A DNA stretch of 40,625 nucleotides from Candidatus Heimdallarchaeota archaeon (GTDB taxonomy: Archaea; Asgardarchaeota; Heimdallarchaeia; Heimdallarchaeales; JAJRWK01), in the NCBI GenBank assembly GCA_027061945.1, contig JAMOVR010000172.1, positions 1 through 40,625 of the forward strand, given 5' to 3'. Of the stretch, positions 3,246-9,234 are shown in pieces. The notes beneath the pieces are model-generated. The model made no database searches. It saw only the letters and a program-made list of their open reading frames with translations, and had not been told where the DNA came from. The translations under genes and the position numbers were made by a program. Each line of letters begins with the position of its first letter. Position 1 is the stretch's first letter.

Positions 3246-5468
3246 ATGTTGGTAGACTCTCTTCCCATAGACGACCAGATCATTGAGATATTAAAGAAAC
3301 AAGGTATACAAAAGCTATATCCCCCACAAGCAGAAGCTATAAAAACAAGATTTATTGAGGAGGGAAAAAATCTAGTAGTATCAATCCCAACGGCCTCTGG
3401 AAAGACTTTAATCGCGAAAATAGCTATTGCACAAAGACTATTAGATAATGGCGGAAAAGCGGTTTATCTTACTCCATTAAAAGCCTTAGCTAAAGAAAAA
3501 TATGACGAATTAAAAGCCTTTCTTACCCCTTTAGGATTTAAAACAATAATGACAACTGGTGATTATGATAGTGATGATGGTTGGTTGGGAAATTATGACG
3601 TAATAGTTACCACCAATGAGAAATTCGATTCTATATTGAGGAGAATTCCTGGTTGGCTAGAAACTTTAAGTATAATTATAAGTGATGAAGTTCATTTTAT
3701 GGGCTCTAAAGATAGAGGTCCTGTACTAGAAATTGTTTTAACTCAAATAAGAAGGAAATATCCTATTGCACAAGTCTTGGCTCTTTCTGCAACGATAAGT
3801 AATGCCAAAGAGATCGCAGACTGGCTAGATGCAGAATTAATAACAAGCAAATGGAGACCTGTAGAGCTAAAAGAAGGAGTTTATTTCGACAACGTAATTG
3901 AATTCAAAGATGGGGAAGAAATTGAATTAGAAAATGAATTCAAAGATCCTTACATCACTCTTGCAATAGATGCATATCGCCTAGGTGGCCAAGCACTTGT
4001 CTTTGCATCAACAAGAGCAAGTGCAGAAACTAGTGCGGAACAAATTGGTAAAAAATTAAAGCAGGAATTAAACGTAAATGAGAAAAAGGCTCTTAAAACA
4101 CTTGCAGAACAAATAGAAAATATCGGAGAGAAAACTTTGATTCGGGATAAACTAGTAAAGGTCATAAAAAATGGAACTGCTTTTCATCATGCTGGTTTAC
4201 ATTATACACACCGCGAAATAATTGAGCAAGCGTTTAAACAAAATATCTTGAAAGTAATATCTAGTACTCCGACTCTTGCTGCTGGTGTTAACTTACCTGC
4301 AAGAGTAGTAGTTATTCGTTCCTTGCGAAGGTATGAAATGGGTTATGGAAACACATGGATACCTGTGAACGAATATAAACAAATGGCTGGGAGGGCTGGA
4401 AGACCACAATATGATGACGTGGGAGAAGCAATAGTTACTGCAACAAATAAAAAAACTAAGGACTTTATTTTTAAAAACTATATTAACGCTGAGACAGAGC
4501 CTATAATGAGCAACTTAGGTGTTGAACCAGTTTTACGTAAGTTAACGCTCTCACTTATTGTGACAGGTGACTCCACAAATTTAGAGGAGATTCTGGAATT
4601 TGTTGAATTAACCTTCTTTGGATATGTTTACGGTTCAGCTATAAGCTATATTGAAACGAGGATTAAAGATGTGCTCTCGATGTTAAAAATTAATGGTCTT
4701 ATTAAACAAGGAATACCACTTGAACCTACTAGATTGGGAACGCGAGTAGCAGAATTATATGTCGATCCTCTAACTGCAGTGATAATTAAGGAAGGTCTTG
4801 AGAAGGCCAGTACATTGGTTGAAGTTCCAGAACTCTCATATCTACATTTAATAGCCACAACCCCTGATATGAGAACATTTTTCACTAAAAAAAGCGAAGA
4901 AGAACAATTAGATGAGATATACCAACAAATGATGAGTTATTTATTAACGGATCTACCGGAAACTAATTCTGAAGTGTTACTAGAATATCAAGCGTTAAAA
5001 ACTGCGTTAGTATTGAATGATTGGATAAATGAAGTCCATGAAAATGACATAATTCTGAAGTATGGCATAGGTTCTGGAGATATCTTATCCATAGTGAATT
5101 TAGCAGACTGGCTTTTATACTCTGCATCAGAGATAGCACGAGTTCTTTCATATGATGAAGAAAAAGAATTTTTAACAGAACTACAATTTAGAGTAAAATA
5201 TGGAGTTAAAAAAGAACTACTTGAATTAATCAAAATACCTGGCATCGGCAGAGTTCGTGCAAGAATATTATATGATAATGGTTATCCATCCATTCATGAG
5301 ATTGCTGCAGCTACCGTTGATGAAATTGCTCGGCTACCTAAATTTGGTAAAACACTTGCACAGCAATTAATAAAATATGCTAAAGGAGAAATAAATTCTA
5401 AGGACTTAGAACAAAAAATAACTTCGGAGAAGTATAATACTAAAAAAAAGCTTGATGAATATTTTTAG
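3246..5468 (+). CDS. hel308: Ski2-like DNA helicase Hel308 (Hjm)
   Basis: 740 aa, typical for archaeal Hel308. Motifs: Q-motif-like YPPQAEAI (~25-32), Walker A PTASGKT (~48-54), DEVH box in ISDEVHFMG, motif III LSATISN, motif IVa-V TPTLAAGVNLPAR, motif VI QMAGRAGRPQYD, then a winged helix and ratchet domain. The helix-hairpin-helix IPGIGRVRARILY lies near the C-terminus. The enzyme unwinds lagging strands at stalled forks and takes part in recombination repair. The extreme C-terminus KKKLDEYF resembles a PCNA-interacting peptide with K in place of Q. ATG start with upstream agaggtt as a likely ribosome-binding site. It ends 22 bp before the deacetylase gene, so the two are probably co-transcribed. 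Confidence 0.96.
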   Translation: MLVDSLPIDDQIIEILKKQGIQKLYPPQAEAIKTRFIEEGKNLVVSIPTASGKTLIAKIAIAQRLLDNGGKAVYLTPLKALAKEKYDELKAFLTPLGFKTIMTTGDYDSDDGWLGNYDVIVTTNEKFDSILRRIPGWLETLSIIISDEVHFMGSKDRGPVLEIVLTQIRRKYPIAQVLALSATISNAKEIADWLDAELITSKWRPVELKEGVYFDNVIEFKDGEEIELENEFKDPYITLAIDAYRLGGQALVFASTRASAETSAEQIGKKLKQELNVNEKKALKTLAEQIENIGEKTLIRDKLVKVIKNGTAFHHAGLHYTHREIIEQAFKQNILKVISSTPTLAAGVNLPARVVVIRSLRRYEMGYGNTWIPVNEYKQMAGRAGRPQYDDVGEAIVTATNKKTKDFIFKNYINAETEPIMSNLGVEPVLRKLTLSLIVTGDSTNLEEILEFVELTFFGYVYGSAISYIETRIKDVLSMLKINGLIKQGIPLEPTRLGTRVAELYVDPLTAVIIKEGLEKASTLVEVPELSYLHLIATTPDMRTFFTKKSEEEQLDEIYQQMMSYLLTDLPETNSEVLLEYQALKTALVLNDWINEVHENDIILKYGIGSGDILSIVNLADWLLYSASEIARVLSYDEEKEFLTELQFRVKYGVKKELLELIKIPGIGRVRARILYDNGYPSIHEIAAATVDEIARLPKFGKTLAQQLIKYAKGEINSKDLEQKITSEKYNTKKKLDEYF

Positions 5469-5490: not shown

Positions 5491-6525
5491 GTGGGTCAGC
5501 AAATAATTGCTTTTTATCATGAGGATATGAAAAAACATTACATGGGAAAAAGCCATCTTGAAACTCCTGTACGACTTGATATTTTAATTAACAGTCTAAA
5601 GCAATCAGAATTCGATGTTAAATGGATAAAAGCGAAACAAGGATTAGAGGAAGATGTTTTCAGTGTTCATAGTAAAGAGCTTCTAAAATATATTAAATTA
5701 GCCACCGAGAAAGCACCAACATGGATCACAGCAGATACAAGAACAAACAAATATACATACTATTCTGCGATGCTTGCAGTTGGGGCAAGTAAACACGCGG
5801 CTTTAGCTTCTTTTAATGAGAAAAAAATAGCGGTCGCCTTGACAAGACCTCCTGGGCATCATGCTACTGAAAATGCTGCAATGGGCTTTTGTTTTTTCAA
5901 TAATGCCGCAGTAGCAGCTAAAACATTATTAAAAGAAAAAGGTCTAAATAAAGTGCTAATTTACGATATAGATAATCATTATGGAAACGGGACTGCATCT
6001 ATTTTCTTTAAAACAGATAAGGTGTTAACCACTTCAATTCATTGTGATCCTTACGAATGCTACCCTGGTGTTGGTTTCCCTAACGAAATTGGTTCTGGAG
6101 ACGGAATAGGTCATAACATTAATGTTCCAACGCCAGTGTATAGTAATAACAATGATTGGTTATATGCCCTTAAAAGTACTATTATCCCTGTAATTCAAGA
6201 ATATGAACCAGAAGCAGTAATTGTAAGTGCTGGTTTTGATGCTTTAAAAGGGGATCCTTATGGAAAACTTTCCCTAAATTATGATGCTTTTGAATACGCT
6301 GGTAAACTCTTAGTTGATTCTTTACCGAAAAAAGTAAGAAAAAAAATCGTCTTAGTGATTGAGGGCGGCTACAAACTTCCAGATCTCGGAGAAGCATTTA
6401 TCTATTTCTTGAGGGGTCTAACTGGTAAAGGCATGTCTCTTCCAAAACAAATGCCTGTATCAAGAATTGCTAAAAAATATACTTCGCACGCCCAGGGATA
6501 TATCAGAAAATATTGGAGAATATAG
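5491..6525 (+). CDS. Histone deacetylase-family (HDAC/AcuC/APAH) deacetylase
   Basis: 344 aa. Arginase-like deacetylase fold with the diagnostic motifs RPPGHHA (~119-125, tandem catalytic His), GFCFFNNAA, DIDNHYGNGT (Zn ligands Asp and His of the DxDxH motif) and SAGFDA (third Zn ligand Asp). A late GGY (EGGYKLPDL) matches the substrate-tyrosine region. The family removes acetyl groups from lysines, polyamines or small amides; substrate cannot be assigned. GTG start at 5491, chosen because aggcggt lies just upstream and it is the first start after the hel308 stop. Downstream of hel308 by 22 bp, suggesting one transcript. Confidence 0.93.
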   Translation: MGQQIIAFYHEDMKKHYMGKSHLETPVRLDILINSLKQSEFDVKWIKAKQGLEEDVFSVHSKELLKYIKLATEKAPTWITADTRTNKYTYYSAMLAVGASKHAALASFNEKKIAVALTRPPGHHATENAAMGFCFFNNAAVAAKTLLKEKGLNKVLIYDIDNHYGNGTASIFFKTDKVLTTSIHCDPYECYPGVGFPNEIGSGDGIGHNINVPTPVYSNNNDWLYALKSTIIPVIQEYEPEAVIVSAGFDALKGDPYGKLSLNYDAFEYAGKLLVDSLPKKVRKKIVLVIEGGYKLPDLGEAFIYFLRGLTGKGMSLPKQMPVSRIAKKYTSHAQGYIRKYWRI

Positions 6526-6950: not shown

Positions 6951-7646
6951 TTACTTTTCATATTTAAAAACACGATATTTCATTTCTCTGCTATCTTCAA
7001 CTGAAACTACAGAATCTTTTATCTCGCTGAGTTTATCTAATAACTCGTAGAATGCTTTTTCTCTTTTACCTCCTTCTCCTTCCTCAACATAATAAACTAC
7101 TGGAAAACGATGTTTTTCTTTATCAATTAGTTGGGCTAATTTACTTCCTTCTCTTCTCTCTTCAATGTTACAATTCTTACCAAACCATACATAGATAACA
7201 TCATTACCGTCTAAAACGAATACATCATCACTTTCCAAAGAGTCTTGAGAAATAGGTACTTCTTTGACGGTTGCTTTATCAAAGTAACGTGTCTGTTTAT
7301 CTGCTTCTACTTTGTACATCTTATATTCAACCATGTCTAGTTTTGCGTGTCTCAAAAATCCAGGTGTATCTGCATCAACAACTCTAAATTTTACTAATTC
7401 CAAGAACTCTTCAGGTTCTTCATCCTGAGTGACTGTTATGATTATTGGTTCACCACGTCTTTGCAGATCCATTTTATGACTGAGCCACGCCCCAATACCT
7501 TTTTCATCGATTCCTGAGTCTTTTCCTAACCAAATGTAAATAGTATCCCCATTGTCAACTATATACACATCTCCATCATAAAATTCGAATTCATTTCCTT
7601 CTAACTCTTTTAGTTCCTTACCTTCAATATGAAATACTTTAACCAT
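6951..7646 (-). CDS. Two-domain gelsolin-like protein (2DGel)
   Basis: 231 aa with two tandem gelsolin-type repeats. Repeat 1 (~1-105) carries FEFYDGDVYIVDNGDTIYIWLGK; repeat 2 (~110-231) carries SLESDDVFVLDGNDVIYVWFGKN. Both show the D-[VF]-[YF]-[IV]-[VL]-D-x-G/N-D-x-I-Y-[IV]-W-[LF]-G-K pattern and a following helix with the IDEKGIGAW or IEERREGSKLA register. Gelsolin domains bind actin, often with calcium. Two-domain versions are known from Asgard archaea, where they act on filament assembly or severing. No signal peptide; cytosolic. ATG start at 7646, next to tRNA-Ala on the other strand. No actin gene is in the window. Confidence 0.88.
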   Translation of the reverse strand: MVKVFHIEGKELKELEGNEFEFYDGDVYIVDNGDTIYIWLGKDSGIDEKGIGAWLSHKMDLQRRGEPIIITVTQDEEPEEFLELVKFRVVDADTPGFLRHAKLDMVEYKMYKVEADKQTRYFDKATVKEVPISQDSLESDDVFVLDGNDVIYVWFGKNCNIEERREGSKLAQLIDKEKHRFPVVYYVEEGEGGKREKAFYELLDKLSEIKDSVVSVEDSREMKYRVFKYEK

Positions 7647-7848: not shown

Positions 7849-7925
7849 GGGCCGGTAGCTCAGCCTGGTAGAGCGCCTCCTTGGCATGGAGGAGGCCCCG
7901 AGTTCGAATCTCGGCCGGTCCACCA
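7849..7925 (+). tRNA. tRNA-Ala (anticodon GGC), CCA encoded
   Basis: Acceptor GGGCCGG pairs with CCGGTCC and contains the G3:U70 wobble pair that marks alanine tRNAs. D arm GCTC/GAGC; anticodon stem CCTCC/GGAGG with loop TTGGCAT, anticodon GGC at 7883-7885; T arm CCGAG/CTCGG with loop TTCGAAT; discriminator A and encoded CCA at 7923-7925. The overlapping ORF 7774..7977 is a shadow of this gene. Confidence 0.97.
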
Positions 7926-7980: not shown

Positions 7981-8041
7981 AGCACTCTCAGGCTACCTCG
8001 ATTTCATCATTATCAGAGGGGTGAGGTCATCATCGAGTGCT
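7981..8041 (-). ncRNA. C/D box sRNA (2'-O-methylation guide)
   Basis: Read 5' to 3' on the minus strand from 8041: closing stem AGCACTC, box C ATGATGA (8033-8027), a 10-nt guide CCTCACCCCT, box D' CTGA (8016-8013), TA, box C' ATGATGA (8010-8004), a 12-nt guide AATCGAGGTAGC, box D CTGA (7991-7988), closing stem GAGTGCT (7 perfect pairs with the 5' end). All four boxes match consensus and the 61-nt size is standard. By the N+5 rule, the D guide (complement GCTACCTCGATT) points to the C equivalent to E. coli 23S C2498. The D' guide (complement AGGGGTGAGG) points to about G2545. Both targets rest on remembered rRNA sequence. It lies 76 bp downstream of the HxlR gene on the same strand, so it may be processed from that transcript. 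Confidence 0.9.
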
Positions 8042-8117
8042 ATCTTAAATTAAGTAAAAACTCGTTTAATAGTATTGATAATTCTTAAAGAAAAATAAAA
8101 TAAAAAACAAATTTTAA

Positions 8118-8549
8118 TTATCCAAATGTCTCAATGAGTATTTTAAGTGCACAATGCTCACAGTGTTTGCTAAGCATAGCGTCCTTATCTTCTTTAGTCC
8201 ATCTTTTATTCCATCGACTAAATTCAATAAGCACATCTTTGAAATCTACTCCTTTTTCTGTAAGCTTATAGATCACTCTTACAGGTCTCCCTGATTTTAC
8301 TTTTCTAGTAATAATTCCCTCATCTTCAAGTTCTTTTAATCTGTCCGCCAACATCTTATTAGAAATCCTTTCTCCATGGCAACCAACAAGCTTTTTCTTC
8401 ATCTCAGAGAAAGTCATTTCTCCTTCTAAATATAAGTGTGCTATTATAAAAAGAGACCATTTTCTGGAGATAAGCTCAAATTGAGAAATAAAATAACATT
8501 TTAAATCTTCTTCAGTCCCTGCTTCTTTTTTTACTGAAGTTCTCGGCAT
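8118..8549 (-). CDS. HxlR-family winged-helix transcriptional regulator
   Basis: 143 aa. The HxlR pattern is clear: ISRKWSLFIIAHLYLEGEMTFSEM (helix 2-3), then ISNKMLADRLKELEDEGII (recognition helix) and the wing KSGRPVRVIYKLTEKG. The C-terminus adds KHCEHC, and with C near residue 29 the protein carries several Cys that could sense redox or metal. Such proteins are dimeric repressors or activators, often acting on neighbouring or own genes. ATG start at 8549 with an AT-rich TATA-like stretch just upstream. An inverted repeat at 8602-8638 is a candidate operator. No enzyme gene is divergent from it, so the regulon is unknown. Confidence 0.9.
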   Translation of the reverse strand: MPRTSVKKEAGTEEDLKCYFISQFELISRKWSLFIIAHLYLEGEMTFSEMKKKLVGCHGERISNKMLADRLKELEDEGIITRKVKSGRPVRVIYKLTEKGVDFKDVLIEFSRWNKRWTKEDKDAMLSKHCEHCALKILIETFG

Positions 8550-8694: not shown

Positions 8695-9234
8695 TTATAC
8701 TCCCAAACTTATGTCTAATACATTATTTGCCAAGATCAAGAAACTTTCCTCTACATTCTCACCAGTCTTTGCAGAGGTCTCCATGTAAGGAACGTTCCAA
8801 CCTAACCATTCTGATAGGCTTTCTGCGTATTTCTCAGCTCTTTCTTTAGACACTACTCGTTCGTTAACGAGGTCTATCTTGTTTCCAACAAGCATAAAGG
8901 GTATTTTCCCTGCGTTTTGAACAAGCATAGAAATCCATTTAGGAATAGACTGAAAAGTGCTTTCCCTAGTAACATCAAAAGCGATCATTGCACCTTTTGC
9001 ACCACGATAATAACTAGTGGCGATTTCTTTATATCTAGCTTGTCCTGCAATATCCCAAATTTGGAGTATTACTTGAAAATCATTTAATTCTAAAGTAACT
9101 CTGGCAAAATCTGCTCCAATAGTCATTTGTTCGATCGGATCAAATGTTTTGTAGACGAATCTTCTCTTGAGAGAAGTTTTACCAACAGCACCATCGCCTA
9201 ACAAGACGATTTTAGCAACAAACTTATTCCTCAC
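8695..9234 (-). CDS. Rab-like small GTPase of the Ras superfamily
   Basis: 179 aa with the complete G-box set: G1 GDGAVGKTS (~13-21), G2 Thr in MTIGADFA, G3 WDIAGQARY, G4 NKID, G5 TSAKTG. YYRGA after switch II and the TIGxDF switch I resemble Rab proteins more than Ras, Rho or Arf. The catalytic Gln of G3 is present. The C-terminus (LDISLGV) lacks a Cys motif, so no prenylation is expected. GTG start at 9234. Downstream partners (GAP, GEF) are not visible nearby. Asgard genomes encode many such GTPases, so this is a paralogue of unknown pathway. Confidence 0.93.
   Translation of the reverse strand: MRNKFVAKIVLLGDGAVGKTSLKRRFVYKTFDPIEQMTIGADFARVTLELNDFQVILQIWDIAGQARYKEIATSYYRGAKGAMIAFDVTRESTFQSIPKWISMLVQNAGKIPFMLVGNKIDLVNERVVSKERAEKYAESLSEWLGWNVPYMETSAKTGENVEESFLILANNVLDISLGV

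Follow-up and report, generated by a model that had tools for sequence, protein, structure and literature searches.

A C/D box sRNA gene in a Heimdall-type Asgard archaeon with a D guide complementary to the C2498 region of its own 23S rRNA

Fibrillarin methylates the target base that is paired to the fifth nucleotide upstream of box D or D', and eukaryotic rRNA is methylated by the same guided route; the Asgard archaea are the closest relatives of eukaryotes. The C/D sRNA class, its mechanism and the standing of the peptidyl transferase region as a methylation hotspot are already known (PMC4644070, PMC7994747). A 2015 survey of archaeal C/D sRNAs covered seven species, none of them the present one, and Asgard or Heimdall archaea go unmentioned in the main text of a 2021 review on these RNAs. 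C2498 of the Escherichia coli 23S rRNA is methylated by RlmM, and in the cross-domain table of PMC11542601 the C2498 row has no archaeal or eukaryotic counterpart. The archaeal column of that table is a halophile with few modifications, therefore a C2498 guide may be known elsewhere under another number. A literature search, with supplements outside its scope and in a field where organism-specific numbering may hide sites, found no archaeal guide for C2498.

The sRNA gene described here lies in a stretch of 40,625 bases (the window), contig C172 of a 2.95-Mb metagenome-assembled genome (MAG; 377 contigs, 87% complete), and the host is a Heimdall-type Asgard archaeon. We propose that the locus is very probably an archaeal C/D guide sRNA gene, whose D guide directs 2'-O-methylation of the C2498 equivalent and whose D' guide has no assignable target.

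Anatomy and genomic setting of the sRNA gene

Direct reading of the minus strand confirmed the complete C/D box sRNA that had been proposed at 8041-7981, including all the boxes, the 7-bp closing stem and the 10- and 12-nt guides. The boxes follow the RUGAUGA/CUGA consensus in the order C-D'-C'-D, and the terminal stem, which would permit a C/D kink-turn, is found in the sequence as well as in the predicted fold. The features are as follows.

7981..8041, minus strand: C/D box sRNA gene, core including the closing stem (sequence reading, predicted fold, chance simulation, covariance model)
8035..8041, minus strand: 5' arm of the closing stem, AGCACTC, whose partner in the predicted fold is 7981-7987
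Minus strand, between the 5' stem arm and box C: a single g (sequence reading)
8027..8033, minus strand: box C, ATGATGA, with the same letters in two congeners
8017..8026, minus strand: D' guide CCTCACCCCT, 10 nt, with targets at chance level (CCGAACACCA and CCGAATACCA in the congeners)
8013..8016, minus strand: box D', CTGA (sequence reading)
8011..8012, minus strand: D'-C' spacer TA, 2 nt, 3 nt in the congeners (sequence and congener comparison)
8004..8010, minus strand: box C', ATGATGA (sequence reading)
7992..8003, minus strand: D guide AATCGAGGTAGC, 12 nt, pairing over 11 bp with GCTACCTCGAT of the own 23S rRNA; G7996, the fifth base from box D, is opposite the C2498 equivalent
7988..7991, minus strand: box D, CTGA (sequence reading)
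7981..7987, minus strand: 3' arm of the closing stem, GAGTGCT (sequence and predicted fold)
8065..8071, minus strand: TATA-like TATTAAA, 24-30 nt upstream of the sRNA, a possible archaeal promoter judged from sequence

The strict layout (C-guide-D'-spacer-C'-guide-D) has a single copy in the window, and 60 first-order Markov simulations of the window contained no instance of it, while a relaxed layout occurs 0.017 times per simulated window and never with a stem of at least 5 bp. In an Rfam search at the sRNA coordinates every C/D family remained below its gathering score, with archaeal C/D families among the best matches (sR11, 25.7 bits against a gathering score of 39; snoPyro_CD, 23.3 against 45); such scores are expected, since it is mostly the guides that define these families. 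Like the sub-threshold Rfam scores, two details of the anatomy speak against our explanation. In the predicted fold, ACCUC from the D' guide region pairs with GAGGU of the D guide over 5 bp, in the window's species only, and this pairing could mask the D guide. The D'-C' spacer, at 2 nt, falls short of both the 3 nt seen in the congeners and the 4 nt of the snoPyro_CD consensus.

On one side the sRNA is flanked by a tRNA-Ala gene (plus strand, 7849-7925) and on the other, upstream and on the same strand as the sRNA, by the gene of an HxlR-type regulator that ends at 8118. The window also encodes a histone-deacetylase-family protein (5491-6525, 259 bits) and, close to it, a protein with gelsolin repeats (6951-7646) and a GTPase of the Ras family (8695-9234); gelsolin-repeat proteins and Ras-family GTPases are typical of Asgard genomes. 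The fragmentation and incompleteness of the MAG weigh against our explanation. An IorA-like protein of the window shares 71-72% identity with its congener counterparts and at most 49% with those of other relatives, and the contig with the 23S gene is 96% identical to the congeners over 400 nt downstream of the target site. Both comparisons point to the same genus, which makes contamination by the sRNA contig or the 23S contig unlikely.

The genes for Nop5 (aNOP56; Nop domain, 226 bits) and fibrillarin (288 bits) are present in this genome and overlap on contig C362, in a cluster (L106) that continues with a small unknown protein and RlmE/FtsJ, so that a guided and a stand-alone 2'-O-methyltransferase adjoin. 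Two further C/D sRNAs were recognized by eye in the genome, L110 (C210:3685-3721) and L112 (C213:7373-7405); the D' guide of the latter pairs with the 16S rRNA around own position 1308 over 11 bp (10 Watson-Crick), a result equalled by 6 of 400 shuffled guides. The Nop5 and fibrillarin genes together with the further C/D sRNAs imply that this genome makes use of the class. On the C/D and C'/D' motifs of the predicted transcript, an RNP of L7Ae, Nop5 and fibrillarin would form.

The D guide and the C2498 equivalent of the 23S rRNA

Comparison of the D guide to the organism's own 23S gene (L001) revealed 11 contiguous Watson-Crick base pairs with GCTACCTCGAT, while the next-best site in the 16S rRNA, the 23S rRNA and 30 tRNAs reaches 8 bp (7 Watson-Crick and one G-U). 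Shuffled guides equalled the real one in 1 of 300 and 3 of 400 trials. G7996 forms a G:C pair with position C3729 in the own 23S gene, the counterpart of E. coli C2498 in an alignment to rrlH. With 12 nt, 11 bp to the own rRNA and a Watson-Crick pair at the fifth base, the D guide conforms to what is expected of the class (guides of 10-12 nt, at least one of them pairing over 9 bp or more). It would pair with domain V of the 23S rRNA beside the peptidyl transferase centre, where fibrillarin would methylate the 2'-O of the C2498-equivalent base.

The sRNA was found in two congeners (G001 and G002), in both of which the guide core ATCGAGGTAG is unchanged, with variation (C, G, T) confined to the base adjoining box D. 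The closing stem is kept despite base changes, being AGCACTC/GAGTGCT here and GTGCTC/GAGCAT in G001. A covariance model gave G001 and G002 81-83 bits, scores that come from a model built from the very congener sequences it scored, and gave the other genomes of the class at most 26 bits; in none of the remaining 56 genomes did this model find a homologue with a comparable score. Apart from the two congeners, a scan of named genomes with TGANGANATCGAGGWAGNCTGA returned just three stretches, all lacking C/D architecture (two bacterial, one from an archaeal MAG). The gene has been relocated: in both congeners (L004, L005) its neighbour is an mtnA-like gene, as we take it to be from its sequence, in place of the tRNA-Ala and HxlR genes found here, and the flanks do not align. 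The congeners also have a second C/D sRNA in common (L142 on G002:C106 and L143 on G001:C429), with the succession GATGAAGA..CTGA..GTGATGG..CTGA and the D guide ATGCAGCGGACA.

The strongest support for C2498 comes from G084, a genome of a separate Asgard class. Its C/D sRNA (locus L077) has the D guide ATCGAGGAAGG, which forms 10 Watson-Crick base pairs with GCTTCCTCGATG of the genome's own archaeal 23S gene (C62) and addresses the same base. G084 has U2497 in place of A2497 and its guide has A at that place where the guide of the window has T; the change in the guide matches the genome's own U2497 and is therefore compensatory. Besides the common aim at C2498, the G084 sRNA shows little other similarity to the sRNA of the window, and its D' guide is unrelated. 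A search of 228 genomes of the phylum with the pattern ATCGAGGWAGN{0,2}CTGA gave 40 listed matches in 39 genomes, little above the reversed-pattern control; among the matches listed, C/D architecture was recognized by eye only in the three species of the genus and in G084. The latter assembly contains a second, bacterial-looking 23S gene (L159, G084:C197:812-4088; GGCACCTCGATG), which probably belongs to a contaminating contig.

The sequence-only reading had assigned the D guide to the C2498 equivalent and had named, as what would refute it, the lack of complementarity of at least 8 bp to the organism's own rRNA or tRNA and of conservation in relatives. Both are present for the D guide: the 11 perfect base pairs, its retention in the two congeners (and the distinct G084 guide aimed at this base) and the guide/target covariation all agree, and the assignment of this predicted guide to C2498 holds.

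The D' guide and alternative explanations

The C'/D' half is intact as an assembly site, with a D' guide to which no target can be assigned. Against the 16S rRNA, the 23S rRNA and the 30 best-scoring of the 38 tRNAs, none of its matches rose above those of shuffled guides. Neither 9 bp nor 9 bp with one mismatch or G-U was found near the D target, the best nearby pairing being 7 bp, at chance level. The guide differs between the three species and is evidently fast-evolving; it may be a weak guide for the A loop, have its target elsewhere, or contribute only to the cohesion of the RNP.

An A-loop target is possible but weak. Here the D' guide pairs with GGGGGTG and would address G2551 (7 bp, one G-U), and the D' guides of the congeners pair with GGTGTTC and would address G2553 (7 bp, the pair at the site itself being Watson-Crick in G001 and G-U in G002). 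Among D' matches lying no more than about 100 nt from the C2498 site, the A loop ranks first in all three species, and for both congener guides it is the top 23S match by score. Shuffled guides, however, do as well there in 449 of 3000 trials for G001, 842 of 3000 for G002 and 1450 of 3000 for the window's own guide, and the species differ in register by 2 nt. A homologue of RlmE/FtsJ, the usual U2552 enzyme, is moreover encoded in the genome. Although methylation at U2552 and/or G2553 is reported for every organism studied (PMC7994747), the 7 bp fall short of the 9-bp rule of Dennis et al., and a double guide aimed at G2551 here and at G2553 in the congeners is doubtful.

An action of the D' guide on a different RNA is rather unlikely. 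The matches with the highest scores for CCTCACCCCT are indeed of this kind, namely AGGGGTGAAA in the 16S rRNA (8 bp, own position 643), position 1313 of the 23S rRNA (8 bp) and, among the tRNAs, position 7 of an initiator tRNA-Met-like tRNA (9 bp including one G-U). Shuffled guides, however, reach the tRNA score in 75 of 300 trials, 8 Watson-Crick base pairs in 182 of 300 and the rRNA score in 215 of 400.

The instability of the D' guide across species, together with a box D' that reads CGGA in G002, could also be signs of a decaying or unexpressed sRNA gene. This is very unlikely, as the boxes are all perfect here, the core of the D guide is invariant in three species despite the relocation of the gene, and the stem has been preserved with changed bases.

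The own 23S gene contains two insertions. One, of about 800 nt after E. coli position ~1923 (L001 reverse complement ~3533-4333), has a LAGLIDADG_1 ORF (61.9 bits) and group-I-like ends, with a sub-threshold Rfam group I score of 13.9 bits, and is probably a mobile intron in a Heimdall-type 23S gene. The other, of about 329 nt after E. coli ~2477 (L001 reverse complement ~4880-5208), contains no obvious gene, gave no match in an Rfam search and may be an intron or an expansion segment; it ends about 20 nt before C2498, is shared with both congeners and is absent at that place in G010, G019 and G084. The position of this insertion just 5' of the target in all three species of the genus, and the chaperone role proposed for C/D sRNAs (PMC4644070), would suit an sRNA that aids folding or splicing of the 329-nt insertion and does not guide methylation. 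That is highly improbable, however: G084 has a matching guide and an uninterrupted 23S gene at this place, and conservation of the fifth guide base is in keeping with methylation.

As for the D' target originally proposed, AGGGGTGAGG with methylation at about G2545, archaeal C/D sRNAs are often double guides whose targets lie no more than 100 nt apart (PMC4644070, PMC7994747), but for this 23S, and unless a further 23S gene missing from the assembly carries AGGGGTGAGG, we dismiss it, as AGGGGTGAGG is absent from the own 23S rRNA, the guide's best matches are no better than shuffled ones, the own sequence at A2541-G2550, AAGAGTGGGG, matches the D' guide at only 7 of 10 positions with one of the three mismatches adjoining the supposed methylation site, and the congeners, with a 23S identical there, carry different D' guides. 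With it falls the argument that two targets less than 50 nt apart support each other; of the two neighbouring 23S sites, compared with the own 23S, the D site (C2498) stands and the D' site (G2545) does not.

Comparison with known systems

The sRNA is a new but ordinary representative of a well-known class. It provides one concrete candidate site in the core of the ribosome, C2498, and guide/target covariation between two Asgard classes. A broader view, in which some Asgards would use an RNA-guided enzyme to methylate C2498, the guides of separate lineages would track rRNA changes and a D' guide would have been re-aimed by two A-loop bases within a genus, is speculative and, taken as a whole, improbable. 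With one of two proposed targets wrong, guide targets need comparison with the organism's own rRNA.

With the archaeal C/D sRNAs (sR11, RF01150; snoPyro_CD, RF00095) the sRNA of the window shares the box order, the closing stem, guides of 10-12 nt, a host encoding Nop5 and fibrillarin, and complementarity to rRNA in a register that puts the fifth base from box D opposite the methylation site. It differs from the Rfam C/D families in its scores below the gathering values, its Asgard host, its single convincing guide and its 2-nt spacer. Pyrococcus abyssi sR25 (cited in PMC2584109) is likewise a C/D guide in the peptidyl transferase region, a predicted U2552 guide, whose target is the A loop, whereas that of the window's sRNA is C2498. 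The enzyme acting on the same ribosomal base is E. coli RlmM, the 23S Cm2498 methyltransferase; RlmM is a stand-alone, guide-free protein, whereas in the system of the window specificity would come from RNA.
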